From a virus: a stretch of DNA of 64,000 bases. The translations under genes were made by a program, and so were the position numbers. Within the stretch, counting starts at the first letter, position 1. Each line of letters starts with the position of its first letter. Positions 19 to 47,302 of this stretch are shown one piece after another. The notes under the pieces are model-generated. The model was not told where the DNA came from and ran no database searches. It saw nothing but the letters and a program-made list of their open reading frames with translations. The DNA is taken from positions 24,931 to 88,930 of the IMG/VR virus record IMGVR_UViG_3300011116_001123; one strand, 5' to 3'.

Positions 19-570
19 TTATGGAGTCGGATAATCCACTTTCGGAACAGGTAGATTTCCTGCGCCGGTAGTACAGAAAGTTTGTTTCAATTCTTTGGTT
101 AAGGAAGGTGCGAAAACACTAACGTAAAAATTTGAAAGAATTATACCCAACTTGTCAGAACTACAATTGAAATATGCTTTAGATCCAAATCTATCGAGAT
201 CGAAAACCACATCATTATTTCCAGTAACGTCAGAGTATGCTTTTTGAATTTTGAAAGTTCCATATAAATTACCAATCTCATCAGGTTTGTTTTTTCCGCT
301 AATTACAGAATATGTGTTGAATTGTTTACCCACATATTTTTCCAAAAGATCTGGATTATTGAACGGATTTGTTGTCGTGTCTCCACTAGTAGTCCCACTA
401 GTTGGGTTTGGAAGAGTTGGATTTGACATTGGTGGAGTAGTCTTGGTTTTCACACCAGGATTTTCACCAGTTTGTACAACAGTGGTTTGAGTTTGTTCAC
501 TCATCAGTCGTTTCTCCAATCTTTGGTTGGCTTCTTGAATATGTCTGATTTTACTATAACTTCTATTCAT
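19..570 (-). CDS. Tagged putative virion protein, 183 aa
   Basis: Function not recognised. The first 25 residues are a charged helix ending in RLMSEQ, matching the hydrophobic-x-E-Q ends of other proteins in this window, so I infer a capsid-targeting propeptide. Residues 26-75 are Pro/Thr/Ser/Asn-rich, low-complexity and probably disordered; the remainder looks like a small beta-rich domain with two cysteines. The start is supported by an RTATTTAT motif 15 nt upstream. Its 3' end lies at the window edge so its terminator is not visible. Confidence 0.7.
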   Translation of the reverse strand: MNRSYSKIRHIQEANQRLEKRLMSEQTQTTVVQTGENPGVKTKTTPPMSNPTLPNPTSGTTSGDTTTNPFNNPDLLEKYVGKQFNTYSVISGKNKPDEIGNLYGTFKIQKAYSDVTGNNDVVFDLDRFGSKAYFNCSSDKLGIILSNFYVSVFAPSLTKELKQTFCTTGAGNLPVPKVDYPTP

Positions 571-585
571 AATTTTACATTTCCA

Positions 586-592
586 ATAAATA
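586..592 (-). promoter_or_regulatory. RTATTTAT late-type promoter motif (long spacer)
   Basis: TATTTAT on the minus strand, 15 nt before the ATG of the 183-aa tagged protein. It lies just beyond the terminator hairpin of the preceding gene. A promoter role is inferred from recurrence before many genes. Confidence 0.5.
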
Positions 593-604
593 TCATTGGG
601 GAAT

Positions 605-631
605 AAAAAACCCCACCTTTATGTGGTGGGG
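605..631 (-). terminator. Rho-independent terminator
   Basis: CCCCACC and GGTGGGG form a 7-bp stem with a 7-nt loop, followed by a T-run on the minus strand. It ends the gene at 655-1062. Confidence 0.8.
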
Positions 632-654
632 TTAATTTATTAAAGTTATTTATT

Positions 655-1062
655 TTATGCTTGAGGTTGTTGAGGTGCTTGAGCCTTTGCAATCGCATTT
701 GCCAAAGCATCAAGTGGTCCCAATACATTGGAAATTGCCGGTAAATATGGTTTGAACGAATTTGTATTTTGATATTGAGCAATAGCCTTTTTAATAGTAT
801 CAGGAAGATTACCAAGTTGTCTTCTGATTTTCAAAATATCATAAATTGCATTTATTTCATTTTGTTGAGCCTGATAAGTCTCTCTGTTCGTGGTTCTCAA
901 ATCTTTTCTTGCATCTCTTCTTGCGTCCTTTGCATCTCGAACCCCTGCTCTAGCAGCATCAAGTCCTTGTTGTGCCGCCAGTTGTTGACTAGTTTGTTCT
1001 TGTATTGCCCTTTTAACTAATTTTGCTAAATCAGCTTCGGTCATTCTTATAATTTTTCCCAT
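655..1062 (-). CDS. Tagged basic Ala/Arg-rich internal-head-like protein, 135 aa
   Basis: The N-terminus carries the RMTEADL-type tag and ends AIQEQ at residue 23, a predicted cleavage site (hydrophobic-x-E, then Q). The mature part is Ala-, Gln- and Arg-rich, with an arginine/aspartate helical stretch (residues 40-65) and an Ala/Gln/Pro tail. This composition resembles DNA-associated internal head proteins of T4-like phages, but that is an analogy, not a recognised homology. It has its own RTATTTAT motif (17 nt upstream) and its own terminator, so it is probably monocistronic. Confidence 0.75.
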   Translation of the reverse strand: MGKIIRMTEADLAKLVKRAIQEQTSQQLAAQQGLDAARAGVRDAKDARRDARKDLRTTNRETYQAQQNEINAIYDILKIRRQLGNLPDTIKKAIAQYQNTNSFKPYLPAISNVLGPLDALANAIAKAQAPQQPQA

Positions 1063-1079
1063 GTTGTGTTTAGTTTAAT

Positions 1080-2987: not shown

Positions 2988-2997
2988 ATTATATAAA

Positions 2998-4017
2998 TTA
3001 ATTTAAAAATACTTGAGATTCGAAGTTTCTACGTTTCGATAAACCAGGATAATATTGACCTGTCTGTGCTCCGGTGGTTGGACCTTGTGCGATGTAAGCT
3101 GCTGCAGCTTCCATATCTCCATCTACGATTGCATTTTTTATATTTTTCCCGTAATCCCTAGCAGTGAAAACATACGGACCAGCATTATAACTGAAACTTA
3201 ATAACGCGGCTTTTTGAGAGTCATTTAATTTTTCCCAGTTCAAGGGTCCAAGTTGGCTGGCAACGATTGGAGCGAAAGTATTTTTTAATTGATAGTCCAA
3301 AGTTTCTTCAGCTTCCTCAAGCGTCCAAGTGGTTTTGGGTGTCACATCGACCAACTTACCACCGACTAATTTTTTGGATGTTCCATACCCACCTCTATAT
3401 GTACCTTCATCATCTGAAGCTGTGTCACTGAACGTTTCAAATTTTCTGATGAGTTGCTTTGTCATTTCCAACCAATCACCCGATAAAGAAATATTGATAT
3501 TTCCGACTAACGGGTCTATTAATTTTTCTAAATCTTCAGAGTCGATATTTTTTTCTTTAAGAAGTTCAATCATCTTAAGTAACATTTCTTCTGAGGCTTT
3601 TGTCGGACCTACTTCTGATGATTCCTCAGATGAAGTTGAACTATCATCTTTTTCGACATGGTCATTAGTAAATTCTTCAACAGCTTCGGCAGTTTCAGGT
3701 CCAAACAACCCATCGACACCATGAATTGGTAAATCATATCCAAGAATAATCAAACCAACCTGCATTGATTCAACTTCTTTTTTGAAATTGTAACTACCTC
3801 GTTCTTGTTGAGATATTCCACCATCCTGAGCGGCAGTTTCCAATGTATCGAAAAATTCATCCACATCGACTCCAATTAAATCAGCTTTGGTTGGATCATC
3901 ATCTTTTTTGTAGCCAACGTCTTTCAAAAATCGGTCAATAAATTCTTGTTCAACAATTTGACTACCATACATCATGGAATGCATTCTGTGCAATTCCTCA
4001 GTCAATGATTTTTTCAT
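2998..4017 (-). CDS. Tagged peptidoglycan-binding lysozyme (GH24-like), 339 aa
   Basis: Three parts are visible: an N-terminal tag ending QIVEQ (residue 24); a PG_binding_1-like module at about 80-125 with the typical 'GLFGPETAEAVEEF' ending; and a T4-lysozyme-like GH24 domain from about 185, with 'RKFETF' supplying the likely catalytic Glu, 'YRGGYGTS' matching the GYGT loop and 'DSQKAALLSFSYNAGPYVF' matching the family's conserved helix. GH24 enzymes cut the MurNAc-GlcNAc bond. Tag plus cell-wall module suggests a virion-carried muralytic enzyme for DNA entry rather than the main endolysin. Preceded by an RTATTTAT motif at 4 nt. Confidence 0.8.
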   Translation of the reverse strand: MKKSLTEELHRMHSMMYGSQIVEQEFIDRFLKDVGYKKDDDPTKADLIGVDVDEFFDTLETAAQDGGISQQERGSYNFKKEVESMQVGLIILGYDLPIHGVDGLFGPETAEAVEEFTNDHVEKDDSSTSSEESSEVGPTKASEEMLLKMIELLKEKNIDSEDLEKLIDPLVGNINISLSGDWLEMTKQLIRKFETFSDTASDDEGTYRGGYGTSKKLVGGKLVDVTPKTTWTLEEAEETLDYQLKNTFAPIVASQLGPLNWEKLNDSQKAALLSFSYNAGPYVFTARDYGKNIKNAIVDGDMEAAAAYIAQGPTTGAQTGQYYPGLSKRRNFESQVFLN

Positions 4018-4390: not shown

Positions 4391-4921
4391 TTATTGAAAA
4401 CCACCTTTCTCGTCGTAGTAGCTTAGAATTTGACTAAGTACTGAGATTACTTGAGGTAAATTTTCTCTGTCGTATTGTGTGTATAGTGTTGTATAAGGAG
4501 TTCCGTTTACATCTCTATCATTCTTTCTTTTTGAATTTTTTCCTCTCATAGGAATTGATGCCAGCAATTGTTCGAATTTAATATCTGCAAAAACAGAGAA
4601 ATAGCCACCCTTAAAAACTGTCAAGTATAAACCATCTGCTCCTGGCGTGAACCACGATTCAATTTCATCATTACTACCCGATTCTTCGGCTGGATGTACT
4701 TTGCTTAATTCCGAAACTAATTTTCGATAATTCTTTTCGGTCTCTATTGACGGTGGATTTGAAGGAATGGAAGGCATTTTACGTCTGAAGTCGTCAAGTC
4801 TTCGTAGAGCCATTTTTTTAATTTCTTCTTTGCTTCCTGGAATGATAGCTCCTTGTTCTTTAATTACTCTTCTAACCAATCTAGTCAAATCTGCCTCGGT
4901 TAATCTAATAATTTTTTTCAT
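4391..4921 (-). CDS. Tagged putative virion protein, 176 aa
   Basis: A clear example of the LTEADL tag: lysine-rich start, RLTEADL, then an amphipathic Arg/Val helix ending VIKEQ at residue 23. The cargo (residues 24-176) is a mixed alpha/beta domain with no family I recognise; 'SWFTPGADGLYLTVFKGGYFSVFADIKF' suggests a beta-sheet core. It is flanked by its own motif (17 nt upstream) and terminator, forming a single-gene cassette. Confidence 0.75.
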   Translation of the reverse strand: MKKIIRLTEADLTRLVRRVIKEQGAIIPGSKEEIKKMALRRLDDFRRKMPSIPSNPPSIETEKNYRKLVSELSKVHPAEESGSNDEIESWFTPGADGLYLTVFKGGYFSVFADIKFEQLLASIPMRGKNSKRKNDRDVNGTPYTTLYTQYDRENLPQVISVLSQILSYYDEKGGFQ

Positions 4922-4993: not shown

Positions 4994-6223
4994 TTACTTA
5001 TACAGTACAAAATTATTTTTTTTATCTTTCAAATCAATGACTTGAAACTCGGTGGGGGTTATGGGATAGACAAGATAATCGACAGCATCCTTATATTTTT
5101 TCGATTCAAACCTTTTTGCATCTGATTCGGAGGATTTGACTTGAATTGTTACGGCATCCTTACCTCTTCCCATAATCAAGTCCACAAAAAAATTCATATC
5201 AATAAAGTTTCCGTTGCCTCCACGATATAAAACATTGTATCCAAGTTTTTCAAAAGCATTGGCGACATCAGATTCCATTTGGTCTCCCAACTTGGAAAAT
5301 TTAGTGGTATACTTGGTAAAGTTCATTAAATCCTTTTTATCTTCCAAATATTTTTCGAACAAGTCCTTGAAGTTGTCTTTATATTTTAGTAGGATATTTT
5401 TGATTACTTCGGAATCCGAAGCTGTAGATATTGTGTCGAGAATGCTTTTAGCTGCAGTACTTCCATTACTTTTAGCCTTCTCCAAATAAGTTGACAATAA
5501 ATCAGATATGTCAGAATAGTTGGTGTTCAACTTATTAACATAATGCCATTTACCATTCGGATTTAAATTACCTTCATCATCAACGTACACCAATTTTTTT
5601 CTATTTAAGTTTCTTACAAAATAGTCATATTGTTTGTCGTTAATTTTACCATATGAATTTAATATTTTGGCACCTTTGAGATTGTCTTTAATATCATCTT
5701 GTTGAATATCAAATTTGATATCCGATAAAATATCATCAACCACTTTACGAAGGTTCAACCCTTCATTAGATTCCAACCAAGCCCCCAAAGAATTTAATTT
5801 GTTATATACATTACCACCCAACACCTTGGAGATATTCCCACTCAGTTTTTCTTCTTCCTGACGGGAAATGATTTTATCTACAACCTCTCTATTCCTGTTT
5901 TGATATCCAATACATCCAGTTGGGACTTGTAAACCACCAAATTTGGTTATGGTCATGCTTTTGCAGGCATATGAGCTCATATCCAACTCAATAACATCCT
6001 CACCCAATTTGATTTCCAAATATCCCTTATTCCCATACAATTGTGATAAATCATTGGAAGTCAATTTACCTTCTCCTCCATCAATGACAACAGGATTGTT
6101 CACATAGTAATAATTACCCTTTGAACCCAACGAACTACCTTTGATGGTCGCAATATTCACACCAGTCTGAATGACCTCAAGCAAATGATTTAACTGACCT
6201 TCTGAAATGATGAAGTTTCTCAT
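4994..6223 (-). CDS. Tagged protein with C-terminal PD-(D/E)XK nuclease-like domain, 409 aa
   Basis: I chose the ATG at 6223 because it gives the tag 'MRNFIISEGQLNHLLEV' and sits 6 nt after an RTATTTAT motif. The last ~100 residues look like a PD-(D/E)XK endonuclease: Glu ~317 in a helix (QMESDVANAFEKLGY), Asp ~348 (FFVDLIM) and Lys ~363 (TIQVKSS), the E...D...QxK order found in resolvase/restriction-like folds. Residues 30-130 hold a beta-rich region with two cysteines; the middle is helical. A nuclease behind a capsid-targeting tag could be an injected anti-host or anti-competitor enzyme; that role is inference. Confidence 0.65.
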   Translation of the reverse strand: MRNFIISEGQLNHLLEVIQTGVNIATIKGSSLGSKGNYYYVNNPVVIDGGEGKLTSNDLSQLYGNKGYLEIKLGEDVIELDMSSYACKSMTITKFGGLQVPTGCIGYQNRNREVVDKIISRQEEEKLSGNISKVLGGNVYNKLNSLGAWLESNEGLNLRKVVDDILSDIKFDIQQDDIKDNLKGAKILNSYGKINDKQYDYFVRNLNRKKLVYVDDEGNLNPNGKWHYVNKLNTNYSDISDLLSTYLEKAKSNGSTAAKSILDTISTASDSEVIKNILLKYKDNFKDLFEKYLEDKKDLMNFTKYTTKFSKLGDQMESDVANAFEKLGYNVLYRGGNGNFIDMNFFVDLIMGRGKDAVTIQVKSSESDAKRFESKKYKDAVDYLVYPITPTEFQVIDLKDKKNNFVLYK

Positions 6224-7079: not shown

Positions 7080-8261
7080 TTAAACTTCTAACCAACTGAT
7101 TGGTGGTTTGGAAACCTTTTTACACAGTCCTTTTTCCAATAAAAAATCATTTGTAGGCTGAATTTCAGTTTCGAAAGGCTTCAATGATTTCAAATTTGTT
7201 GAAACTCCATCCAATGTCACTTCTATCGTGATTTCATCACTCAAATATTTTTTATACAAGTAATTGCTCAGTTCGAGTGGACCTTTGGGTAATTCTTTCA
7301 TTTTTCTACTCAAAACCGTATTCCCTCTAATTTCTCCATTCTCTATCGCGTATTGACTCAGGGCATTCCTTACAATACCCTCGAGGAAAATATCGAATTC
7401 ATACAAATAACTTGCACCCCTTTTTGGTGCATAAAATCTCAAACTTCTACTCCCATGTTCAGTCACTATTTTGGTGGGGATTTTTCTATCAAAAACTCCA
7501 TCTTTGATATTGATTTCGACATACATACTGTAAGATTTTGCAAATTGATAAACCTTGAAAGAGTTGGAATTGAACTCTTTTGAAAATTTATATTCCACGG
7601 GGTTCTGAATAATCTTAGGTAATTGGTAAGGAGAGGAGGAACACCAATAATACCCTTCTTCACTTTGATTGGTAATATAATTATAAAGTCCAGCAGACCC
7701 ATATGTGCCGACACCGAGCCTTTCAGATGCTTCCTTCAATACGTCCAAAAAATTGGCACCCCCACAAGCGGTGAAAAATACTTTTGTTCCAGAATGAATT
7801 AAAGGTTTGAAACTATCCAAAAAAGTATTATCGAACATGTATGCACCTTTTTCCTTTTGGGTCATTAATAAGTTACCTCCCTTACCATGAGACCCAATAA
7901 CAAACTCATCAGTTTTAACACCCTTTTTTACAAGACCTTCAACAAAACTAACTGCCGAAGATAAACTTGTGAAAAATCCTGTAACGATTCCCAATTTTTT
8001 CAACAAGGAAAGAGCCATTTCTTCCCAACCATACAAAGGAAAAATTAATCGAACTTTTTTTATCGAAGCCGCAGGTTTATTTTTCAAAGCATCGAAATAC
8101 TTTTCTTTTTCCAAACCCTGAAATCGATTTTTTTCAAATGCACCGTCTTTACCCAAATAGTCAGATGTAGGTTTATCTGATGGGGCAACATTCGGATTGA
8201 ATAATCGTCTTGTTTGTTCTTTTAAAAAATTAAATTGATTTTTGGTTATACGTATTTCCAT
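7080..8261 (-). CDS. Tagged protein with caspase-like (clan CD/CHAT-type) His/Cys domain, 393 aa
   Basis: Begins with the tag 'MEIRITKNQFNFLKEQ'; cleavage is predicted after Glu15. The central region has 'VIGSHGKGG' (His125) followed about 40 residues later by 'KVFFTACGGANF' (Cys166), the strand-HG then strand-AC pattern of caspase-fold CHAT/C80 peptidases and the related DUF4347 fold. The C-terminal half is beta-rich and not recognised. If active it would be a cysteine peptidase packaged in the capsid. Without the tag it could equally be an inactive fold relative, since only the dyad and its surrounding strands support the call. Confidence 0.6.
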   Translation of the reverse strand: MEIRITKNQFNFLKEQTRRLFNPNVAPSDKPTSDYLGKDGAFEKNRFQGLEKEKYFDALKNKPAASIKKVRLIFPLYGWEEMALSLLKKLGIVTGFFTSLSSAVSFVEGLVKKGVKTDEFVIGSHGKGGNLLMTQKEKGAYMFDNTFLDSFKPLIHSGTKVFFTACGGANFLDVLKEASERLGVGTYGSAGLYNYITNQSEEGYYWCSSSPYQLPKIIQNPVEYKFSKEFNSNSFKVYQFAKSYSMYVEINIKDGVFDRKIPTKIVTEHGSRSLRFYAPKRGASYLYEFDIFLEGIVRNALSQYAIENGEIRGNTVLSRKMKELPKGPLELSNYLYKKYLSDEITIEVTLDGVSTNLKSLKPFETEIQPTNDFLLEKGLCKKVSKPPISWLEV

Positions 8262-8539: not shown

Positions 8540-9127
8540 TTAAATTATTTCCCAATCGATTTCACCATACTGGTCATAATCATCATTCTCATCGTGAGTG
8601 GAACCGTCAATATCTTCCTCAACCTTTCTATAAGCCTCACATGCACTTCTTGCCATAACCGTATGAGTCCATGTCTGAACGCAAGAACGAGACGCCTGAA
8701 TGGTATATTCCGTTTCCTCATTCTCTTCCCATCCTTCTTCATCCTCGCAGTCATCGTCAACAACATTCTTAGTTTTTTCGGGAACCCTTCCAAACTTATC
8801 GATTGATTCCATCAAAGAATTTCTAAATGCAATCAAATCCTTCAGAGAATAAATCTTAAATGAATAACTTGAGCAAGGGGATCCATTCACACCAATCTCA
8901 ACAAATTCCTTTGTTCCATCAAAACCATCCCAATGATAAATGGATAGACCTGAGGCATTATCAAATTCCAAAGTGGAATTATCAACATACATATAATCCA
9001 AATGCCAATCATCAGGATTGGAATCCTTCATATCTTTATACTCCTTCTCCAAATCACGAAGTTGGGTCAACGCTTTGGAATACTTCTTCTCAAAAGATTT
9101 CTTCCACTTATCACTATATTCTGCCAT
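8540..9127 (-). CDS. Acidic hypothetical protein, 195 aa
   Basis: No family recognised. It has a lysine-rich N-terminal helix, a middle domain ('NASGLSIYHWDGFDGTKEFVEIG'), an acidic linker at about residues 130-145 and a C-terminal module 'YTIQASRSCVQTWTHTVMARSACEAYRKVEED' resembling a compact alpha/beta unit. No tag and no RTATTTAT motif, so it may be expressed at a different time from its neighbours. Confidence 0.6.
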   Translation of the reverse strand: MAEYSDKWKKSFEKKYSKALTQLRDLEKEYKDMKDSNPDDWHLDYMYVDNSTLEFDNASGLSIYHWDGFDGTKEFVEIGVNGSPCSSYSFKIYSLKDLIAFRNSLMESIDKFGRVPEKTKNVVDDDCEDEEGWEENEETEYTIQASRSCVQTWTHTVMARSACEAYRKVEEDIDGSTHDENDDYDQYGEIDWEII

Positions 9128-9171
9128 AACAAATTTTTTATAATGATAAGAAAAATTTTTTAATAAAAAAA

Positions 9172-9206
9172 GGGGTTGGGGATTAGAACGACCGAAGGGA
9201 GAACGG
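9172..9206 (-). repeat. Dispersed 3'-end repeat B, copy 2
   Basis: GGGGTTGGGGATTAGAACG followed by ACCGAAGGGAGAACGG. It lies upstream of the 414-aa metallopeptidase stop. The right-hand GTATACGAATATCC block is missing. Confidence 0.6.
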
Positions 9207-9213
9207 AAATATG

Positions 9214-10458
9214 TTACGCGAGATTTTTATCTGTAGTGTTGGGCTTTCCCATAGCGATAGAATTACTGAAATTCAAAAAGTCTGCCAACGTTTTTTTACT
9301 ATATATCCACTGAGATAAGAAAATCCGCAAGTCAGAATCAATATTCGTTTTTCCGTTGACTGAATTAATTATCATCTCTTTTGTAATTTTCTGGTCTGGT
9401 TTCAATTTAAAATAACGTCTAATTTCAGACAAAGTTGACATAACTTCATTTGGGTTTCTGAGGTGAACCTCATCATTTTTGAGTCGCCATAAATAAGTGT
9501 CGGAAATTTTACTTGACGCATTTTCATCAAACCCTTGTGTCATTAGGAATTTTTTCAATCTCTGAAAATTGGTTTCAGGTGTACCACTCGTATCGTCTCC
9601 TAAAAACTTTTTTATTACCCAATCATCAAATTTATTGGATTCATAAGGATGGAATTTATGATAATCATCTAGAATATGTTGAATCTCATGAATCATAAAT
9701 GACAATGCTTCATTTTCACTATAATCATTAGCCACCCTACAATTTATGTTTATAGGCACATCATACCCATTAATAAAAAGGCCTGGTCTTACCCATCCAC
9801 CCGCGATATCATCACTTATAACATATTCGATTGGTATTTGTGATAGTATCTTATTATATTCGGCAAAATGTTTCTCGACCGTGCTTTTATCGTATTTGAA
9901 TGATTTAGCAAACCTATCTTTAGTCGATGGATGGTTCAACCAATTTCTCCACCAATCAGTCGCTTTTTTTAGTAAATCAGAATTATATTTAGATTTACAA
10001 CGATAAAAAATTTCATTTTGTTTTTTTATTTCATCTCCCTCCACCGTGCCTACACGAACAAAAGGTATGTTAATCGATTTAAGAACAGGAGCCTTACCTG
10101 GAATTGTATAAACAAAAGTCAAATTTCCTGTAAAACTTCCTTCTCCTACTGATTGATTAAAATCCAGTGTAATAAAATCTACCTGCTTTGATAGGATTTG
10201 TTTTGAATACTTTTTTTCTCCATCAAAATATTCGAAAATTGGGGAACTTTTTTCAATGTTCACAATTATCGGAGAGATATTATTTTTATTATGAATTGAA
10301 ATTTTTCCAGATTTTTTTGGAAGTATGTAAGCTCCACTTTTAGGGTCCACACCATAAGCAACAATCAAAATATTATTATCAGAAAACAAAACTTTGTCCT
10401 CAGACTGTTCATTTAATACCACCCGATTGTATTGACTCTCTGTAATCAAAATATTCAT
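9214..10458 (-). CDS. Tagged HExxH zinc metallopeptidase-like protein, 414 aa
   Basis: The tag 'MNILITESQYNRVVLNEQ' predicts cleavage after Glu17. Residues 250-271 contain 'SFMIHEIQHILDDYHKFH', an HEIQH zinc-binding helix (His257, Glu258, His261); the third ligand is not identified. Residues 20-140 look like a beta-sandwich region. With its RTATTTAT motif 4 nt upstream it belongs to the tagged set, so I infer a virion-carried protease. Alternatives are a structural protein with a degenerate peptidase fold. Confidence 0.65.
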   Translation of the reverse strand: MNILITESQYNRVVLNEQSEDKVLFSDNNILIVAYGVDPKSGAYILPKKSGKISIHNKNNISPIIVNIEKSSPIFEYFDGEKKYSKQILSKQVDFITLDFNQSVGEGSFTGNLTFVYTIPGKAPVLKSINIPFVRVGTVEGDEIKKQNEIFYRCKSKYNSDLLKKATDWWRNWLNHPSTKDRFAKSFKYDKSTVEKHFAEYNKILSQIPIEYVISDDIAGGWVRPGLFINGYDVPININCRVANDYSENEALSFMIHEIQHILDDYHKFHPYESNKFDDWVIKKFLGDDTSGTPETNFQRLKKFLMTQGFDENASSKISDTYLWRLKNDEVHLRNPNEVMSTLSEIRRYFKLKPDQKITKEMIINSVNGKTNIDSDLRIFLSQWIYSKKTLADFLNFSNSIAMGKPNTTDKNLA

Positions 10459-10469: not shown

Positions 10470-10487
10470 CACAATATCATGAAAAAA

Positions 10488-10546
10488 GGGGTTGGGGATT
10501 AGAACGACCGAAGGGAGAACGGACGGGGCGGTATACGAATATCCCC
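10488..10546 (-). repeat. Dispersed 3'-end repeat B, copy 3 (fullest copy)
   Basis: Contains all blocks: GGGGATTAGAACG, ACCGAAGGGAGAACGG and GGGCGGTATACGAATATCCCC. GGGGAT at 10494-10499 pairs with ATCCCC at 10541-10546, enclosing an internal CCG/CGG pair. On the minus strand the element ends in CCCC then a T-run. It could be a structured terminator or 3'-UTR RNA. Confidence 0.6.
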
Positions 10547-10602
10547 AAAATTTTTCCAAAAATTTTTTTTAACAAATGGGGTCATAAAAAAATAGGGGGG
10601 TC
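10541..10602. repeat. AT/GC block repeat C, copy 1
   Basis: CCAAAATTTTTCC, then AAAAATTTTTTTT, then a GGGG block and ATAGGGGGG. Related copies occur at 12527-12589 and 12978-13022. Function unknown. Confidence 0.5.
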
Positions 10603-10605
10603 ATG

Positions 10606-10899
10606 TTATAATAAACTTTCAGGGTCAGTGGTCTCAACTCCATCAATTTCTATGTCAGGAAACTTTCTCCTTAAATAATTAAACAACAACTTATTGGTAT
10701 CATCCCCGAACATTGCTTTCAACGAATTCGCTTCCGAACTATTTCCATAGTAAAACCTCTGTTCCCACCAATCCCCAAATATTCTTCCATCCCCAGTTCT
10801 GTACTCACGACTTACCGGACGAAATTTCAAATCATAGGTCGATTCCATGTACTTCTCAAAAATATCATACAATCTACTCTCGTTGATAATGTATCTCAT
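10606..10899 (-). CDS. Tagged small protein (MKYII family), 97 aa
   Basis: Starts 'MRYIINESRLYDIFEKYM', the second tag class in the window: aromatic-Ile-Ile-x-E-x-Arg-Leu. The rest is a small alpha/beta domain ending 'FNYLRRKFPDIEID', comparable to the final helix of the other MKYII proteins. It follows the 105-aa paralogue by 21 nt, probably in one transcript. Function unknown. Confidence 0.65.
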   Translation of the reverse strand: MRYIINESRLYDIFEKYMESTYDLKFRPVSREYRTGDGRIFGDWWEQRFYYGNSSEANSLKAMFGDDTNKLLFNYLRRKFPDIEIDGVETTDPESLL

Positions 10900-10920: not shown

Positions 10921-11238
10921 TTAATAATATATTGAATAATAGGATGCAATAACCCTTTCATCGGGGAATCTCTTCTCAAACCATTTTACAAACATCTCCT
11001 CAGTTTGAGATTGATTCAAATTGAACATGGACATTATTGTAGAAAATAATTCTCGAGCAACTCCCAAGTGTCGTCCAAAATACTGAAATATTATATTATC
11101 ATTTTTATCAAGAAGGTCGAAGTCCTCCTTTTCCCCAAGTTGATGACTTGACTTTGTTCTGATCAGTCTCCCCACCGCCAAAGTAATATACTTATCAATC
11201 AAGCTTACAAGTCTGTCTTCTGAAATAATATAATCCAT
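10921..11238 (-). CDS. Tagged small protein (MKYII family), 105 aa
   Basis: Starts 'MDYIISEDRLVSLIDKYI'. The C-terminus 'MFNLNQSQTEEMFVKWFEKRF' matches the shared pattern MFxLxxxExxxFIKxWFxxxF of paralogues at 13.3, 17.2, 21.4 and 21.7 kb. An RTATTTAT motif lies 5 nt upstream. Likely a small virion or injected protein; function unknown. Confidence 0.7.
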   Translation of the reverse strand: MDYIISEDRLVSLIDKYITLAVGRLIRTKSSHQLGEKEDFDLLDKNDNIIFQYFGRHLGVARELFSTIMSMFNLNQSQTEEMFVKWFEKRFPDERVIASYYSIYY

Positions 11239-11291: not shown

Positions 11292-11705
11292 TTATATCTT
11301 CACAGGAGATTTTGCTTTTTTAATTATACATTCTCCAACATCCTTAAGTTTTCCCATAACTGTAAAAATATTATCCCCAGTAGACTTCGACAAGTCGGAG
11401 GTACAAGGTCCATATTTTGTGATATCCAATGGAAGTTGTTTAGTGTCCCCAATTTCTTTAGCAAGATCTTTACAACTTTTAGGTAGTTCCATATTCGGAG
11501 CGTCGAAATGAGTTTTGAAACAATCAACCACCATATCTGACGTGTTTGTTCCAGTGACCTGTTCCTTCACCACTGGCTTTACATCCCCAAGTTTTGAATT
11601 TACCAATTTGGAGAAACTCTCAGTCATTACCTTCATTCCCCCTGTATGTTGCTCACGGATAGAGTTCTTCTCTTGTTCCGATAAATCATTTAATAAGTGT
11701 TTCAT
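11292..11705 (-). CDS. Tagged putative virion protein, 137 aa
   Basis: The ATG at 11705 gives 'MKHLLNDLSEQEKNSIREQ', a tag related to the LS/IS-x-E-E-x-x-x-I form of the OmpA-like protein, with cleavage predicted in SIREQ. A second possible site is VVKEQ near residue 50. The mature part has three cysteines and a Lys-rich helical tail. Function unknown. Its RTATTTAT motif is 15 nt upstream. Confidence 0.7.
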   Translation of the reverse strand: MKHLLNDLSEQEKNSIREQHTGGMKVMTESFSKLVNSKLGDVKPVVKEQVTGTNTSDMVVDCFKTHFDAPNMELPKSCKDLAKEIGDTKQLPLDITKYGPCTSDLSKSTGDNIFTVMGKLKDVGECIIKKAKSPVKI

Positions 11706-12597: not shown

Positions 12598-12630
12598 ATA
12601 AAAAACCCCTCGTTAATGGGAGGGGTTCAT
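12598..12630 (-). terminator. Rho-independent terminator overlapping a stop codon
   Basis: AACCCCTC and GAGGGGTT form an 8-bp stem with the stop codon of the gene at 12613-12951 in the loop, so the last codons encode one arm. A T-run follows on the minus strand. Confidence 0.8.
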
Positions 12631-12951
12631 TTTCTTATAATCCAAATAACCTTGTTTTATTTTGTTATTGATTACCTTGTTTTTAACATACTTGAAGAAT
12701 TCCTCCACATCATCAACTTCTCTCTCATTGTCATACTCCAAACTACCCAATGTTTTCCATAAGACTTCTGATTTATAATCTTCGAAATCTTCAGGTTCAA
12801 AACCACCAACATTTATATCAGATATTGCCTCATCCACATAATTGTTAATTATTTCAGACCTTCTTAAATAAAAAGGTTTATCATTTTCATTGATTACCAT
12901 TTTAACAATATTTTCCAAATCTGATTCAGTAAGTCTTACAATCTTTTTCAT
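12613..12951 (-). CDS. Tagged small protein, 112 aa
   Basis: Carries the LTESDL tag: KKIVRLTESDLENIV, ending VINEN. The mature part is acidic and helical ('SDINVGGFEPEDFEDYKSEVLW') with no family recognised. The cassette is complete: RTATTTAT motif 4 nt upstream and a terminator that includes the stop codon. Confidence 0.7.
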   Translation of the reverse strand: MKKIVRLTESDLENIVKMVINENDKPFYLRRSEIINNYVDEAISDINVGGFEPEDFEDYKSEVLWKTLGSLEYDNEREVDDVEEFFKYVKNKVINNKIKQGYLDYKKMNPSH

Positions 12952-13272: not shown

Positions 13273-13575
13273 TTACTTAAGAAATATAATTAACCGAGAG
13301 GGGTTAAGACCATAGTATGTATATAACCATTCTCTAACTACCTTCTTGATTTCTTTCTCTGACAAGTCAAACATGTCTCTCAATCTCGAGGACACATCTC
13401 CGTAGAACACAACAGAGTCATCCCCTTCATCATACTCAAACACATGTGTATTGTTGATTGGATTAATATACAATACTGAGTTGTCTAATGGTTCCTCAAT
13501 AAGGTCGGGGAACTTATCGTTAACAAACTTAACTGCCAGATCCATTAACCGTGATTCTCTGATGATTACTTTCAT
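13273..13575 (-). CDS. Tagged small protein (MKYII family), 100 aa
   Basis: Starts 'MKVIIRESRLMDLAVKFV'. The end 'MFDLSEKEIKKVVREWLYTYYG' matches the shared C-terminal helix of this family. The centre is an acidic beta hairpin region. Promoter motif 4 nt upstream. The gene lies between DnaA-box groups. Confidence 0.7.
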   Translation of the reverse strand: MKVIIRESRLMDLAVKFVNDKFPDLIEEPLDNSVLYINPINNTHVFEYDEGDDSVVFYGDVSSRLRDMFDLSEKEIKKVVREWLYTYYGLNPSRLIIFLK

Positions 13576-17158: not shown

Positions 17159-17470
17159 ATGAAATATATTATACCTGAAAAAAGAATAGAAAGGTTGGCG
17201 AATAAGTACTTAAGTTCTTTAGGGTTAACAGAAGGAAATTATGATGAGGATGGGTTTGATATAATACAAGGTGTTAATCATATGCTGGCGTACCGTAGTG
17301 AAGAAGAGAAATTATACATGAACATTTACTTAATCAAAGACCTCCGAGACCTTTTTGATTTGACCCAAAGAGAAAGTATGACCTATATCAAAAATTGGTT
17401 TCAGGACGCATATGAAACAGATGTGAAGTCAGTATGGTTGTTGTTTCCTGATGAACCATTCACCTATTAA
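17159..17470 (+). CDS. Tagged small protein (MKYII family), 103 aa
   Basis: Starts 'MKYIIPEKRIERLANKYL'. The C-terminus 'LFDLTQRESMTYIKNWFQDAY' shows the family's MFxLxxxExxxxIKxWF helix. The acidic middle (YDEDGFD) and beta-rich centre match the paralogues at 21.4-22.0 kb. It converges on the SGNH-like gene with an 11-nt overlap. Function unknown. Confidence 0.7.
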   Translation: MKYIIPEKRIERLANKYLSSLGLTEGNYDEDGFDIIQGVNHMLAYRSEEEKLYMNIYLIKDLRDLFDLTQRESMTYIKNWFQDAYETDVKSVWLLFPDEPFTY

Positions 17471-18191
17471 TATGATTATAAAATAAATTGGACATTACCT
17501 GATGTCCACTTACCCCCAAATGAAAATCGAATATTTCTTGGTTGGTTTCTTCTTTTATTCTTTCCCCACCATTTTTCTCGATTAGTTTAATCATATTATC
17601 AATCTCCCACTTCATATAAATCTCATCACCCATAATAATTCTTTGGTTATCTCTATCTTGAATCTCTCTATTATAAAGAACATAGGGATCACAAGACCAA
17701 TAAAACACTTTGAAACCAACCAAATCGGAAATATAATTTATTAATTCCATTCTCTGATTTATGACCTCAGAATATAAGTGAAATGTGTTATCACTCGTTC
17801 TGTTGAAAACAATCTCATTTGATGTTTGTTCGGTTATATCTTCGGTACCATTTAAAACCGAATGGTTTCTTCCAAAGTTTGTGTTAATCCATTTTCTCGT
17901 ATCATGGTTTGCCCACATGAATCTTGAAAGAAATGACCAACCGATGATTACCACATCATTTTTTTGAATTGTTCTGATTTGTTCGATTACTCTATTGAAT
18001 ATCATGTCATTCCCCGCGCCAGGTATCCCATGATTTACAAGATTCAAGTTCATTCTGTTTGATAATAATTCAAACCATGTGCTCGGAAAACTTCCCCCAC
18101 AAAATGTCTTATATCTCCTATACTCATCAGTTTCCTCATGATATGGAGAACTGAAACTACAACCAAATATGTGAAGATTATTAATTACCAT
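17460..18191 (-). CDS. SGNH/GDSL hydrolase-like protein 1, 243 aa
   Basis: 'LHIFGCSFS' near the N-terminus matches SGNH block I, with the catalytic Ser in GCSF; 'NHGIPGAGNDMIFNRV' matches block II/III, including a GxGN that could form the oxyanion hole; 'DFHLGVSGHQVM' near the C-terminus supplies the D-x-H catalytic pair. Such hydrolases remove acyl groups from sugars or lipids. It is the last of three SGNH-like genes in one minus-strand run with a glycosyltransferase-like gene, suggesting joint glycan editing. Confidence 0.7.
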   Translation of the reverse strand: MVINNLHIFGCSFSSPYHEETDEYRRYKTFCGGSFPSTWFELLSNRMNLNLVNHGIPGAGNDMIFNRVIEQIRTIQKNDVVIIGWSFLSRFMWANHDTRKWINTNFGRNHSVLNGTEDITEQTSNEIVFNRTSDNTFHLYSEVINQRMELINYISDLVGFKVFYWSCDPYVLYNREIQDRDNQRIIMGDEIYMKWEIDNMIKLIEKNGGERIKEETNQEIFDFHLGVSGHQVMSNLFYNHINR

Positions 18192-18239
18192 GTATTCTAT
18201 TCATCTGCCGTGTGTAAGCAACCACATGCCAATAAATCT

Positions 18240-19166: not shown

Positions 19167-19173
19167 TGTGTAT

Positions 19174-33197: not shown

Positions 33198-33545
33198 ATG
33201 GATGTTTCAATAAATAATCACAGATTCGAAGTTATTACTCTTTTGGACCCACGTTCCCAACAAATTGGAATGATGGGTAAAAGATTTTCCCATATCAAAC
33301 AAGGTATGTTATTTTTGATGGGAGGTAAAGAACAATGTTTTTGGATGAAAAACTGTATTGTACCTTTAGACATTATTATAATAAAAAATAATGTCATTGT
33401 CAACATCCATCATGATTGTCCTCCTTGTCTTCAAGAGGATTGTCCAACTTATTGTGGTAACGGTAATATTGTATTGGAATTACGTGGTGGAGCTTGTCAA
33501 AAGTTGGATATCAAACCTGGAGACACAGTTAATTATCTGCTTTAG
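33198..33545 (+). CDS. DUF192 family protein, 115 aa
   Basis: The family signatures are present: 'RSQQIGMMGKRF' near the start, 'GMLFLM', then 'CFWMKNCIVPLDIIII' (MKNTxIPLDxxF-like), and 'VLELRGGACQKLDIKPGDTV' (the ELxxGxxxxxxIxxGDxV end). A 'CPPCLQEDCPTYC' insert adds five cysteines, possibly binding metal. DUF192 function is unknown. No signal peptide is seen, unlike many bacterial members. Confidence 0.85.
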   Translation: MDVSINNHRFEVITLLDPRSQQIGMMGKRFSHIKQGMLFLMGGKEQCFWMKNCIVPLDIIIIKNNVIVNIHHDCPPCLQEDCPTYCGNGNIVLELRGGACQKLDIKPGDTVNYLL

Positions 33546-34935
33546 ATTGTTCAATTTTTTCTTTTAAAACTTTTTGAAATTGATTTGCAATCATCTTCGT
33601 GAACTTAACCGATGGACTATCTTCCGATTCAGGGTTGTATCTGTAGTTACCTTGAGGTGGTCTTGTACTTCTTCCTAAGTAGTTTAATCCTGATATGTTT
33701 GTGATACACTTATGTCCACCAGAGTTTGATTGAATCAAGTCCCAAGCATTAACACCTATTTTATCCAAAATTTTCATTTCATCTTCAGTCAAACTATTGA
33801 AAGGTTTTTCCATCAAAGATTGGATTTTATCCATAACTTTTTCACCACCATCTATGACCGTTATTTTGTCTCCATACAATGCTTTAAAATCTTTGAAGGT
33901 AAATCCAATACTTTCAGGACCGACACTTGTTTCACTTACCCACTTTATCGTTGATAATGGAACAGTTTTTTGTTTTAACTGTTCTTCCCATTTTCCGAGT
34001 ACTTCTTGAGCAATTTCACCCAAATTCACACCTTTGAGTTGTCTGTCAAGTTTGAATGGATTACATGATGCTTGAACCAAACCCATCGGCCATACCATAA
34101 TTAAAAAATCAGCCTCAGGATTGTTCTTATATGGAGTATATCTATCGTAAGAACCTGGCTTGAACATGCTTCCTCCACCATATTGGAAAATAATATTATC
34201 CGTTACAGTCGGAAATGATTTCATCTTCTCTGTATAATCTTCAGCATTTTTCTGAAGTTCTTCAGCTGAAGGTGCTCCAACCGACTTCATCCAAGATTTA
34301 ATATTATTCAAGATAGACATCAGAGATGGTTGTGAATCCATAACTAACATCTCTAAGAAACCAGGTTTGTTCTTAAAGGCTAATAATAGTTTATTAATTA
34401 CTAATCCCAATAACATCTTATTACCTTGAAGAGAAGTTTCTCTATCTAATCGGAACAAATAATTTACCACATCCTCTGGACTTAAGTTTTGTCTTGCAAA
34501 ATCTGCTGAGTCAACTGTGTTAATTAACAATATATCAGATGATGGGAATAGGTCTCTTGGTGAAACGACCTGTGAAATAGTTGCAACATTAGACCGAGAT
34601 TGTCGAAATGACGTAGATTTTGTATCTTCAGCACCCGCTTGTCTATCATGATGATCCGTATGAATAACAAACATTGGTTTACCATGCGCAAAGTCAACAA
34701 GTACGGGCATTGTATCTCCCATTGCGTCATTCTTTTTTACCGCAAATTCTTTGTCACCATATTGAATTACATGGGCATCGACAACATCGATACCGTTATC
34801 CTCAAGGTATTTTTTCATTGCAATTGCGGTGGTTACACCATCTAAATCCTGATGGAAGTAGATTTCAGCTTTTGGATATCTTTTACTTAATCCTTTTATA
34901 TCCCTAATACCACCCTCTTTTATTATTTTTTTCAT
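33529..34935 (-). CDS. DHH/DHHA1-type phosphoesterase, 468 aa
   Basis: 'AEIYFHQDLDGVTTAIAMKKYL' carries the first metal-binding Asp pair, and 'FVIHTDHHDRQAG' the DHH motif (residues 94-96). Near the C-terminus 'SGGHKCITNISGL' (406-) matches the DHHA1 GGH signature. RecJ-type exonucleases, nanoRNases and cyclic-dinucleotide phosphodiesterases share this architecture. The first residues (KKIIKEGG) resemble a shortened tag. It overlaps the tagged PG-binding gene by 4 nt (ATGA). Degradation of oligonucleotides or cyclic nucleotide signals is a plausible, untested role. Confidence 0.8.
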   Translation of the reverse strand: MKKIIKEGGIRDIKGLSKRYPKAEIYFHQDLDGVTTAIAMKKYLEDNGIDVVDAHVIQYGDKEFAVKKNDAMGDTMPVLVDFAHGKPMFVIHTDHHDRQAGAEDTKSTSFRQSRSNVATISQVVSPRDLFPSSDILLINTVDSADFARQNLSPEDVVNYLFRLDRETSLQGNKMLLGLVINKLLLAFKNKPGFLEMLVMDSQPSLMSILNNIKSWMKSVGAPSAEELQKNAEDYTEKMKSFPTVTDNIIFQYGGGSMFKPGSYDRYTPYKNNPEADFLIMVWPMGLVQASCNPFKLDRQLKGVNLGEIAQEVLGKWEEQLKQKTVPLSTIKWVSETSVGPESIGFTFKDFKALYGDKITVIDGGEKVMDKIQSLMEKPFNSLTEDEMKILDKIGVNAWDLIQSNSGGHKCITNISGLNYLGRSTRPPQGNYRYNPESEDSPSVKFTKMIANQFQKVLKEKIEQSKADN

Positions 34936-35294
34936 TGAAACTGTTTTTTAACCCACTCGAGAAAATTTCCCCAATAATCTTCGTGTACACCATATTCGTT
35001 GGCAACTATGTTTTTCAACATAATTTTGTCTTTCTCAGGCATTTTCGCGTAAGTTTTGTCTCCAAATTGACCATCTGTAGGATATACTCCAATCATTTCT
35101 TGATATTTAGCAATCGCTTTCTCAGTCTCTGAATTTCGTCCAGTTCTACCATCCACTACTAAACCAGCATTCATTCTTTTATTCAGAAAAGCCTGAATTC
35201 TATAAATGTGCTCTCGGTGATACATTTGTTCGTTAATCACTCTTTTAACTACTCTTGTCAAGTCGGACTCCGTCAATTTAATTATTTTTGCCAT
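34932..35294 (-). CDS. Tagged peptidoglycan-binding protein, 120 aa
   Basis: Textbook LTESDL tag (AKIIKLTESDLTRVV, ending VINEQ at residue 23) followed by a PG_binding_1-like domain: 'IYRIQAFLNKRMNAGLVVDGRTGRNSETEKAIAKYQ' and 'TDGQFGDKTYAKM'. The domain binds cell-wall peptide or glycan. Likely carried in the virion. Coupled to the downstream DHH gene and 2 nt after the DUF5856 gene. Confidence 0.75.
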   Translation of the reverse strand: MAKIIKLTESDLTRVVKRVINEQMYHREHIYRIQAFLNKRMNAGLVVDGRTGRNSETEKAIAKYQEMIGVYPTDGQFGDKTYAKMPEKDKIMLKNIVANEYGVHEDYWGNFLEWVKKQFQ

Positions 35295-44804: not shown

Positions 44805-44814
44805 ATTTTAATTA

Positions 44815-44847
44815 TAATAAAAAAAATGGGGGATATAAACCCCCCAC
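44815..44847 (-). terminator. Rho-independent terminator
   Basis: A TGGGGG/CCCCCA stem with a short loop and a T-run on the minus strand. It ends the DUF932 gene. Confidence 0.75.
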
Positions 44848-44851
44848 TTAA

Positions 44852-45601
44852 TTAACAATAAGACTCTGCCAACTCCCAAAGATTAGTATTAATCTTGTTG
44901 ATGGATTGGAAGTTTTTCAATTCTTTCATCGAAGTGAATCTTCCTTTTTCGGATTGGTATCTCAAACCCCCTCGAACAAACTTCTCTTGAATTACGTTGA
45001 ACGTAGTCCAAACTGAACTTCCTGAATCCTCATGTCTGATGGGACGAAGGAAGTCCTCAAATTTGATTTTGGGGATTGACCCACTTTGCCAACGGATTGA
45101 GGTGGCTTTGGTGACAAAGTCAACCACTTTTTCTTCATCCAAGAATGTGGACTCCATCTTACCTACAGACCTTTGGATTACTGGCAGTCTTTCCGCAAAT
45201 TGGTCTGTGATTTGTCTCACTGTTCCCATGTCAAACTTCATGTGTTTAACAGAAATTTTATCCGAAAGGGATGTTGGTACTGTTAAACCATTGGAACAAA
45301 CTAATCGATGAAGACCAGCACTTACTGAGAACGTACTCATTCCGTTGTGGGAATTTCTGATAATCGCCTCTACCAAAGAATCTCCTACTTGTGGAAATTC
45401 CACATTACGTAGTCTCAACTCATGTTGGTCGTAAATCCCTCTACCGTTTTGTTTGGCAGAGTATACTTTCCATCCTTCATTCTCAAAGTTTTCGAGAATA
45501 TCCATTGTCGGTACAAAAGTGTACTTATTCGACATTTTTGGAGATGGAGAGGTGGTGAACACTGAAGGAGCGATTCTCTTGAGGTAGTCTGTCGTTATCA
45601 T
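44852..45601 (-). CDS. DUF932 phage/plasmid-like protein, 249 aa
   Basis: 'GDSLVEAIIRNSHNGMSTFSVSAGLHRLVCSNGLTV' is the hallmark of DUF932 (phage/plasmid-like family), with the Ser-His...R-x-V-C-x-N-G core. The family is widespread in phages and plasmids; its biochemical role is not settled. It forms its own unit with a terminator. Confidence 0.85.
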   Translation of the reverse strand: MITTDYLKRIAPSVFTTSPSPKMSNKYTFVPTMDILENFENEGWKVYSAKQNGRGIYDQHELRLRNVEFPQVGDSLVEAIIRNSHNGMSTFSVSAGLHRLVCSNGLTVPTSLSDKISVKHMKFDMGTVRQITDQFAERLPVIQRSVGKMESTFLDEEKVVDFVTKATSIRWQSGSIPKIKFEDFLRPIRHEDSGSSVWTTFNVIQEKFVRGGLRYQSEKGRFTSMKELKNFQSINKINTNLWELAESYC

Positions 45602-45653
45602 GTCTTATTGATTTAGAATTCAAAGATATGATAAGAAATTTAATTTGCCAAAC

Positions 45654-45935
45654 TCAATTCAAAAAAAGATAACCAAATTTCGTTTTTTGAATAAAATTTT
45701 TCGAGAGTTCTTCAACTACCTGTTTATCAGGTTGATTAATTTTGGAGCAGACATCAATTAATTGAGATTGGGTTAGGCTCACATCCTCACCCTTCTCATA
45801 ATTCTCAATCGCCACTTCTTTGATTTTTATATAGAAGTATTCTTCCTTTTCTTTGGGGACCAAATTCAATAAGTCAGTAGGATTTTCCCTGAAAAACTTA
45901 ATGATGTTATTCATGTATATTTCAACATCAACCAT
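45654..45935 (-). CDS. Hypothetical protein, 93 aa
   Basis: A small helical protein with 'RENPTDLLNLVPKEKEEYFYIKIKEVA' and 'VSLTQSQLIDVCSKI', which looks like a repeat-containing phage family I cannot name. An alternative start seven codons in (MNNIIKFF) is also plausible. Confidence 0.5.
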   Translation of the reverse strand: MVDVEIYMNNIIKFFRENPTDLLNLVPKEKEEYFYIKIKEVAIENYEKGEDVSLTQSQLIDVCSKINQPDKQVVEELSKNFIQKTKFGYLFLN

Positions 45936-45961
45936 ATCGATTAAAATTAATTTGAGAAATA

Positions 45962-47302
45962 TTAATCCTCAGTTTTGTCCATAAATTCCAAATCCCACAT
46001 ATTAGGACCTATTGGGTCACCTTTTTCGAGTATTTTCTTCGGTACTTGTACGTTATCACATCCTTTTAGATTCAAGAACATAAGATTTGGTAAGTCAGCA
46101 ACACACTCAGGTATCGATCTCAATTCAGGATTTCGAGTAATCGCCAAGAAATTCAAATTTTTGAGTTCACATATTGACTCAGGAACTCTCGAGAATGTAA
46201 TGTTATCCGTGAGAATATTTGTTAGATTTTTGAGTTTACCTATATCTTCAGGTAAATCCACATTAATAGGATCTTTACTGTCTCTATTTTGAATTAAAAT
46301 TCTTTCCAAAGATTGAGGTAAACTTTCAACCAAATCTTCTAAACCATACAATGCTATAAACTTACCCACAGTTCCTGAAGTTAAACTTTCAATTTTCAAT
46401 TCTGTACCACCGAGTATCATACCTTTTGCAAACTCAGGTTTGAAGAAAGCTTTTAATTCTTTCATAGGACCATTCAACAAGCCTACTAATTCTTGTTGTC
46501 TGTCGTCCTTGTCCATAAATTGACCAGATGGGAAATGGAATTGATATCTTTCTTTAGGAAGACCAGTCAAAGGGCTAACATCTTTATCATTAGGATTGAA
46601 CACCACATATAAAGGACCATCTTTGATATATCTATCAAACCAGTTTGCTCCAGGAGCTGATGTACACCATCTTGTTTCCTGATTGTTTCCGCCATAAAAA
46701 CACGCGGCTTCCTTACCTACAACTCCCTTGTCCTCAATTTGTATGACTCTCCAGTTCTCACCATCATAAACCATCTTCGCCCCTGGATGGACAGGTGCAG
46801 ATTTTCTTTCAGCCTTTGTGGTTGTTGCTAGTGTTAAATCGAAATCCTTAACAGCATCATAAAGTTGATCTGGTGTCAACTTGTTGATGTCTCTCATTTC
46901 TTTAGGCAAACGTCCCTTGAATCTATCAAACTTTTTAAGGTCATCAGTGACCTTGTAAAGGTCTTCCATGAAAACATCCTTCGCTCGTTTGACATCTTTT
47001 TCATAAGTGTAGTCACCAGGGTTTGTCTCGGTTTTCGGTATCAAATAATGCTTTACTAACCATGGTACATAACTTCCAGCCTTGATTTTACTGAGTTCAT
47101 CAGGAGTAGCAGTTTCGATGTCCACATTATTTAATCTAGTTGTTGGGTCAGCCATGACCAAATCAATAAACTCTTTCTTTGAAAGTTTAGGTCTTAACCT
47201 ATTACCCTCTTTATCCGTACCAGGTTTGGTTAAAGCGTTCATCAAGACTTCGAATCTCGACTGTTCAACTATGATTGACTTTAATAACGAAGTGAATTTC
47301 AT
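45962..47302 (-). CDS. Tagged leucine-rich-repeat protein, 446 aa
   Basis: The tag 'MKFTSLLKSIIVEQ' ends IVEQ (cleavage predicted after Glu). Residues ~60-90 contain 'KAGSYVPWLVKHYL' and ~205-235 'ETRWCTSAPGANWFDRYIKDGPLYVVF', a compact pattern I associate with other phage virion proteins. The C-terminal ~120 residues are 4-5 leucine-rich repeats ('LKNLTNILTDNITFSRVPESICELKNLNFLAI'). LRRs usually bind proteins. Own RTATTTAT motif, 17 nt upstream. Confidence 0.7.
   Translation of the reverse strand: MKFTSLLKSIIVEQSRFEVLMNALTKPGTDKEGNRLRPKLSKKEFIDLVMADPTTRLNNVDIETATPDELSKIKAGSYVPWLVKHYLIPKTETNPGDYTYEKDVKRAKDVFMEDLYKVTDDLKKFDRFKGRLPKEMRDINKLTPDQLYDAVKDFDLTLATTTKAERKSAPVHPGAKMVYDGENWRVIQIEDKGVVGKEAACFYGGNNQETRWCTSAPGANWFDRYIKDGPLYVVFNPNDKDVSPLTGLPKERYQFHFPSGQFMDKDDRQQELVGLLNGPMKELKAFFKPEFAKGMILGGTELKIESLTSGTVGKFIALYGLEDLVESLPQSLERILIQNRDSKDPINVDLPEDIGKLKNLTNILTDNITFSRVPESICELKNLNFLAITRNPELRSIPECVADLPNLMFLNLKGCDNVQVPKKILEKGDPIGPNMWDLEFMDKTED

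Follow-up and report, generated by a model that had tools for sequence, protein, structure and literature searches.

Why would a phage place the same short N-terminus on many different proteins? This question is raised by a 64,000-nucleotide stretch of viral DNA, hereafter the window, which spans positions 24931-88930 of the 88,930-base IMG/VR record IMGVR_UViG_3300011116_001123, itself a fragment. An initial annotation had listed 23 genes in the window whose products begin with related N-terminal segments, or tags, and all 23 listed starts, with the tags as quoted, proved to be in-frame ATGs of real open reading frames (ORFs). We propose that these shared N-termini are probably cleavable capsid-targeting propeptides that follow the principle known from T4, but much expanded. 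According to this proposal, a T4-type myovirus with a genome of ~300 kb would put one of several short tags on many unrelated proteins, and the tag would bind the prohead core or scaffold during head assembly. A gp21-like S77 prohead protease would then cut after the Glu of a psi-x-E motif (psi being I, L, V, or M), and the mature cargo would remain in the head with the DNA, with many cargos probably being ejected into the host. The proposal draws on tag modularity and swapping, selection at the protein level, a boundary at psi-x-E, the protease of the lineage, and cleavage-like sites in its capsid and putative scaffold proteins, all read from sequence.

Interchangeable N-termini on unrelated proteins

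About 500 loci were gathered using degenerate DNA patterns for the tags and homology, and 41 related loci were found through an acidic, core-like protein of the window (51842-53278, minus strand), including the contigs G001 (326,291 bases), G002 (321,283 bases), and G010 (317,210 bases). Profile hidden Markov models (HMMs) identified 1,407 tagged ORFs in the ~500 loci, or 1,104 after removal of redundancy, in four main classes (A to D), and matched 9 of 24,595 shuffled N-termini. Among the low-scoring calls, a few are false; an apparent tagged sigma factor was rejected, as its matches (HMM score 12-13) were internal ATGs within a normal sigma gene. Tags are 16-32 residues long and predicted to be helical, mini-tags have 7-13 residues, and a simple pattern count gives ~30 tagged genes per ~320-kb genome. 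When motif cores were searched without requiring a start codon, an ATG lay no more than 9 residues away for 210/216 (A), 105/107 (B), 128/134 (C), and 34/34 (D) distinct matches, these counts being unbiased for A, C, and D and biased for B, whose loci were fetched with an ATG-containing pattern. Within the window, strongly similar pairs number 10 in residues 2-27, versus none in residues 31-56 and none in residues 61-86 of the same proteins; in G002, there are 92 such pairs in residues 2-27 versus 13 and 12 in two later stretches. The class A DNA pattern occurs in at least 120 stretches of viral contigs and gave 9 matches in 84,980 cellular genomes, one of them a true N-terminal tag (L513, in contig SYAL01000047.1 of a Bacteroidota metagenome-assembled genome). 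This is probably a phage contig binned into the bacterial genome, and provides a hint of the host.

That one tag system serves many cargos, as the initial annotation had supposed, is borne out by the bodies behind the tags. These form 419 clusters, and 41 of the 134 clusters with at least two members hold more than one tag class. Between L415 (tag D) and L418 (tag A), ~142 body residues show 8 differences (~94% identical, counted on the printed alignment), whereas the tags differ in class, length, and sequence, with the junction just after LNE and INE. A metallopeptidase-like protein of the window (9214-10458) bears tag B, and its homologue in G002 (205652-206677; 29% over 276 amino acids, E 1e-22) bears tag C, while the tag C protein at 22337-23053 has tag B homologues in G002 (MKYIITESQLKTIMMEQ) and L161 (MKFIITESQFKMLLEQ). 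A DHH-domain protein (33529-34935) begins with the seven-residue mini-tag MKKIIKE, and a 53% identical homologue in L420 carries a full tag B (MKIIITESQFRMMIKE/S; slashes denote predicted cuts throughout) joined at the same Glu; orthologues of this protein all begin M[KR]xxI[KST]E/[ST]G. The products of 7080-8261 (tag B) and of a G002 gene (183520-184704, tag A) have a PSDYLGK..FEK stretch in common right after the tag, with the rest unrelated, and this stretch is possibly a second module.

Gene-family expansion, in which the tagged proteins would be paralogues with diverged bodies, does account for part of the set. Six listed ORFs of ~100 amino acids beginning MKYIISE-RL (starts at 10899, 11238, 13575, 17159, 21406, and 21702) belong to one paralogous family, because their bodies are homologous (E = 5e-9 to 9e-22, with a profile built from the bodies of other loci). 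The same holds in part for three tag C proteins (starts at 22335, 23394, and 24016), whose bodies are mutually linked through homologues. The suggestion of interchangeable tags on unrelated bodies thus survives for the wider set, in the swaps and the 419 body clusters, and fails for the six ORFs, about a quarter of the list, and in part for the three tag C genes. Likewise, MKYII-E-x-RL, which had been given as a tag class, describes a gene family in its listed ~100-amino-acid members, and the modular relative of the class is M..[IL]I[ST]E-x-Q[YLF]. As a general explanation gene-family expansion is refuted and extremely improbable, since divergence of paralogues would give the reverse of the mixed-class clusters and of near-identical bodies behind unrelated tags.

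The location of the similarity at gene starts might also suggest a nucleotide-level element, such as a translation enhancer or an RNA structure. However, synonymous codons vary freely at the invariant residues, which are encoded by all four Thr codons and six Leu codons, and pairwise codon identity at these residues is 0.46 at position 3 versus 0.79 at position 2; selection therefore acts on the protein. Conservation extends for up to ~30 codons in residue-specific patterns, and an element of this kind retains next to no plausibility.

The psi-x-E boundary and its relation to the phage head

The tags had been described as ending at hydrophobic-x-E, and in four independent tag classes the boundary does fall there. 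Alignments of classes A to D were anchored at whichever psi-x-E lay closest to the expected place. Relative entropy is ~2-3 bits in most tag columns, 0.8-2.1 bits at the residue that follows the Glu, and 0.0-0.4 bits from the second residue past the Glu onward, in all four classes. Selection on psi-x-E inflates the psi and Glu columns, but not the subsequent fall. Psi-x-E stands at the expected place in 170/204 (A), 72/103 (B), 112/125 (C), and 26/34 (D) members, and the residue two before the Glu is I, L, V, M, or F, as selected for by the alignment itself, in 380 of 466 members. The position following the Glu is most often Gln in classes A (41%) and D (58%), and mixed in B and C.

Head genes were found in the larger relatives. 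The head block of G001 and G002 is T4-type and encodes a major capsid protein, likewise T4-type, and an S77 prohead protease, together with apparent portal and terminase genes, which were recognised by eye and by position. With only the class A tag as query, tblastn found no match in 50,697 phage records, and relatives were therefore reached via the capsid protein, which has tblastn matches in 2,510 phage records, mostly T4-like, with best identities of 42-45%. The prohead protease on which the initial annotation had staked its proposal is present: gp21-type Peptidase_S77 scores above the Pfam cut-off in 16/16 surveyed tag-bearing records >250 kb, some of which are near-duplicates of one another, and also in the near-complete relatives G001, G002, and G010, and the four surveyed tag-bearing records without it are all fragments of 198-214 kb. 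Close to the protease gene, but on the other strand, is a gene for ribosomal protein S21 (G001:C1:141706-141852 and G002:C1:108720-108872, both plus strand), an arrangement that has also been reported for Bacteroidetes bS21 phages with genomes of 293-331 kb (PMC9723584). As the S21 and head-block context and the approximate genome length agree, we take the G001/G002 lineage to be the same as, or sister to, those phages.

Sites resembling the tag boundary occur in head proteins of this lineage. Every full-length N-terminus of the major capsid protein in the close family has QLYE/NQAS.LINE/A, and in a candidate scaffold, an acidic protein encoded between capsid and protease and judged by position and composition, all printed sequences keep NQLVKESLSE/Q, followed directly by an acidic stretch that varies. 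For the window's leucine-rich repeat (LRR) protein (45962-47302), an AlphaFold model from 28 sequences (mean pLDDT 83) has a folded body and pLDDT <50 for residues 1-14 (MKFTSLLKSIIVEQ), and the tag is as conserved as the body, with Glu13 invariant in 25/25 orthologues. An N-terminus that is conserved and predicted to be unfolded is how a propeptide recognised by another partner should look. Some cargos are lysozyme or peptidoglycan (PG)-binding proteins, which in other phages are tail-located, so the tags might instead be sorting signals for the tail or baseplate, a replication compartment, or the envelope, with the likeness to psi-x-E being incidental. Such a destination is highly unlikely, given that the putative scaffold protein has the same L-S-E-Q type of end, that S77 accompanies the tags in all large records, and that enzymatic cargos (thioredoxin, DHH, kinase-like) would be ill-suited as tail parts.

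Several points weigh against cleavable capsid-targeting propeptides. S77 is common in large myoviruses, and its co-occurrence with the tags is a necessary condition that does not amount to proof. Having the protease does not entail having a tag system, as is clear from RM378 and Mel-JY01, both of which encode S77 although their examined parts contain no shared N-termini. Being a fragment, the 88.9-kb record of the window lacks the head genes; a search of it for PF03420 gave no match and was uninformative for that reason, and we therefore infer the S77 protease of its phage from relatives. Core binding, cleavage, packaging, ejection, and effector function are likewise steps that we infer for a system known here from genes alone, and some members of each tag class have no clear psi-x-E at the expected place. 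Finally, the first Glu of the tags (in LTE, ITE, or LQE) is more invariant than the last, and the true cut could thus be there. The tags, still head-targeting, would then be cut at this first psi-x-E (LTE/S, ITE/S, or LQE/N), or not at all, and the second psi-x-E would form part of a recognition helix. In the alignments of A, B, and C, conservation of the first Glu reaches 100%, this residue lying within the search core; the DHH-domain proteins have the short form alone (M[KR]xxIxE/[ST]G), and the ~100-amino-acid RL family has the first site alone. However, conservation runs 8-20 residues beyond the first Glu and ends just after the second in all classes, and both the natural swaps and the DHH pair of long and short tags join at the last psi-x-E, making early or absent cleavage unlikely. 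Cleavage of capsid-targeting propeptides at the last psi-x-E is the reading that we prefer.

Tagged genes of the window and their cargo

Genes of the window described here lie on the minus strand unless stated otherwise. Tag A precedes the cargos at 655-1062 (MGKIIRMTEADLAKLVKRAIQE/Q), 4391-4921 (MKKIIRLTEADLTRLVRRVIKE/Q), and 12613-12951 (MKKIVRLTESDLENIVKMVINE/N), as well as a PG_binding_1-like cargo at 34932-35294 (MAKIIKLTESDLTRVVKRVINE/Q), whose PF01471 match (E 9e-4) is below the Pfam cut-off. Tag B stands at 7080-8261 (MEIRITKNQFNFLKE/Q) and on the metallopeptidase-like protein at 9214-10458 (MNILITESQYNRVVLNE/Q), which has a HEIQH (HExxH) motif and for which single-sequence AlphaFold gave no usable model (pLDDT 43). 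A class-B-like tag at 4994-6223 (MRNFIISEGQLNHLLE/V) is retained in the G001 orthologue, and homologues elsewhere start MKYKIKEQ or MKLIKEQ. Four cargos have tag C: those at 21994-22335 and 23050-23394 share the same tag (MNLQEDIDRIKEVMGINE/G) and have bodies related via homologues, that at 22337-23053 (MNLQEDIDRIKEVME/Q) has the homologous bodies with tag B described above, and that at 23399-24016 (MNLHEDINRIKEVMGINE/S) has an L145 homologue with a B-type start (MKYIITERQLKNL). The cargo at 1680-2987 bears tag D (ISDEERKRILSLHESATKNLYLMSE/Q), and in G001 a tag D gene adjoins the major capsid gene (135472-136650). The product of 11292-11705 begins with a long, D-like tag (MKHLLNDLSEQEKNSIREQHTGGMKV...), in which psi-x-E occurs several times (VMTES, VVKEQ) and which is conserved in G001/G002 and in L097, whose body is weakly similar (36%).

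Further tags are rarer in the window. The cargo at 19-570 has tag E (MNRSYSKIRHIQEANQRLEKRLMSE/Q), which recurs with other bodies in G001 (232050, 234591) and G002 (213943, 216111); tag F (MRDLIRRILRE/E) begins the cargo at 26142-26570, whose homologous body in L198 has a C-type start (MNLQEQISRIHEMM); and tag H (MKFTSLLKSIIVE/Q) begins the conserved LRR protein at 45962-47302, in which the repeats are C-terminal. The product of 2998-4017 (MKKSLTEELHRMHSMMYGSQIVE/Q) combines PG_binding_1 (PF01471, E 5e-6) and phage lysozyme (PF00959, E 8e-11), and its orthologue in G001 retains the tag. Members of the MKYII-E-RL family, with homologous bodies and not swapped cargo, lie at 10606-10899, 10921-11238, and 13273-13575, and on the plus strand at 17159-17470, 21406-21699, and 21702-21986.

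Three genes had been overlooked by the initial annotation. The DHH-domain protein at 33529-34935 (mini-tag MKKIIKE/G) has no PDB relative that could be found by sequence. The conserved protein at 55241-55813 has the N-terminus NERYDEIKSLLKKSKLLFE/Q and keeps [LIMF].EQ at the tag end in 20 distinct N-termini, although the search pattern itself demanded psi-x-E-Q. The acidic core-like protein at 51842-53278 has an N-terminal segment (NIDKLVSKILNE/E), found in 14/14 listed homologues, and an internal class-A-like segment (LKLTEDELIDLIEQIVLE/Q), found in 7/14, and is perhaps itself a processed core protein; its length is very variable among relatives, and the internal segment ends VLEQ in half of the homologues. 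Two further tagged genes, of classes D and B, lie outside the window in the other 24.9 kb of its record (L042), at 8795-9313 and 10485-10766 (minus strand). Separately, a run of genes with [FA]GCSF[TS]-like starts occupies 17460-19935, with 13 similar ORFs grouped in G001 by simple N-terminal comparison; by eye, it looks like an expanded SGNH/GDSL-hydrolase-like family.

Most tagged cargos have no known domain. Lysozyme, PG-binding, LysM, LRR, and thioredoxin domains were identified, along with shikimate-kinase/AAA-type ATPase domains that start right after tags B and C. ART-PolyVal-like domains directly follow tags B and C in L376 and L355, with matches below the Pfam cut-off, as is the DHH match of its tagged cargo. 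HExxH motifs are frequent among tagged proteins, and the Tae4-type amidase family had one match among 148 scanned tagged proteins, which was not assigned to its protein. Of the cargo types proposed initially, PG-binding, LRR, and metallopeptidase-like (HExxH) held up, and the listed ORFs yielded no cargo that was nuclease-like. A PADLOC scan of the 148 tagged proteins gave scattered weak matches, none above E 9e-5, and we therefore claim no specific anti-defence function. In jumbo phages, a part in counter-defence or takeover has been suggested for DHH phosphoesterases and ART domains (PMC7824862). The predicted cargo would fit delivery, with lysozyme, peptidoglycan-binding, metallopeptidase-like, thioredoxin, ADP-ribosyltransferase-like, and DHH phosphoesterase-like proteins; such domains suit injected proteins, but do not prove injection.

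Other phages and known packaging systems

The strategy may be general, because the unrelated 484-kb phage LR756508.1 has a tag family of its own, in which 22/57 ORFs of at least 80 residues in one 49-kb stretch share a different, helix-like N-terminus (M-[KR]-LSE-[RK]-KLR-[RK]-IVKEE...VLxE), and S77 protease is present. The S77 protease of this phage (L426:6481 onward; 156507-158102) gives two family matches ~1 kb apart in one frame of 576 amino acids, and the intervening ~1 kb, which begins with Cys after an LDHPD motif, looks like an intein; the N-terminal half of S77 in L278 is similarly long. The isolated Flavobacterium phage vB_FspM_immuto (NC_055915.1) has two further shared N-termini and S77, and is a system in which the idea is testable. 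If correct, the proposal would provide a sequence handle that flags likely head-packaged, injected proteins among hundreds of unknown huge-phage genes, and would offer laboratories a naturally occurring collection of interchangeable packaging signals to work with. It also suggests that delivery of large protein sets is routine in infection by abundant aquatic Bacteroidota phages, sets that may comprise possible anti-defence enzymes, metallopeptidases, ADP-ribosyltransferases, and wall hydrolases.

We found no earlier description of these tags in the open-access literature searched, where the only precedents found were T4, phiKZ/SPN3US, and P1. In phiKZ and SPN3US (gp175/gp245, inner-body and ejection proteins), many head propeptides are cut after Glu and head proteins are ejected (PMC9026906, PMC13282480), but phiKZ cuts after S/A/G-x-E, whereas the tags aligned here mostly have I, L, V, or M at position -2, in an alignment that selected for such residues, and the capsid protein is clearly T4-type. 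In the P1 Dar system, capsid targeting of an anti-restriction protein or of a reporter takes no more than the N-terminal residues of DarB (PMC9024508), but Dar, set apart here by description and not by sequence, has no multi-class set of interchangeable tags. Polyvalent proteins of the ART-PolyVal type in phages and conjugative elements are predicted to be injected with DNA (PMC5512222, PMC7824862); unlike the separate small proteins sharing tags seen here, they are long multidomain chains.

The nearest comparison is with T4, whose internal proteins carry a 10-residue capsid-targeting sequence (CTS) that is cut by gp21 after (L/I)-x-E (PMC9026906). Foreign proteins fused to the CTS are packaged and delivered, and the CTS has been suggested to let T4-like phages take in various proteins (reviewed in PMC9026906). 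IP1, IP2, and IP3 have no homology past the leader and block different restriction enzymes (PMC12373910). Set beside the T4 CTS (IPI, IPII, IPIII, and processed Alt) by described features, not by sequence, the tags are alike in being a short N-terminus common to unrelated proteins, in the (L/I)-x-E cut motif, and in the S77 protease of the lineage, and the cargos known from T4 are injected proteins with roles in host takeover or anti-restriction (PMC9026906, PMC12373910). The tag system thus matches every feature of the T4 CTS that can be tested in sequence. The three internal proteins of T4 bear near-identical tags of 10 residues, and for T-even relatives a number of at least 10 has been reported, whereas here there are ~30 tagged genes and at least four sequence-distinct classes of mostly longer, predicted helical tags, with Gln favoured after the cut (A, D). 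Judged on these features, the scale, the several classes, the tag length, and the documented exchange of tags between classes would be new relative to T4. We tentatively raise a further idea, which we consider rather unlikely, that the tag classes are distinct addresses, each with a different core partner, copy number, or loading stage. By the same tentative reading, swapping tags might set cargo stoichiometry or ejection order. If true, huge phages would carry a programmable protein-delivery code, of which the T4 CTS is the minimal example.

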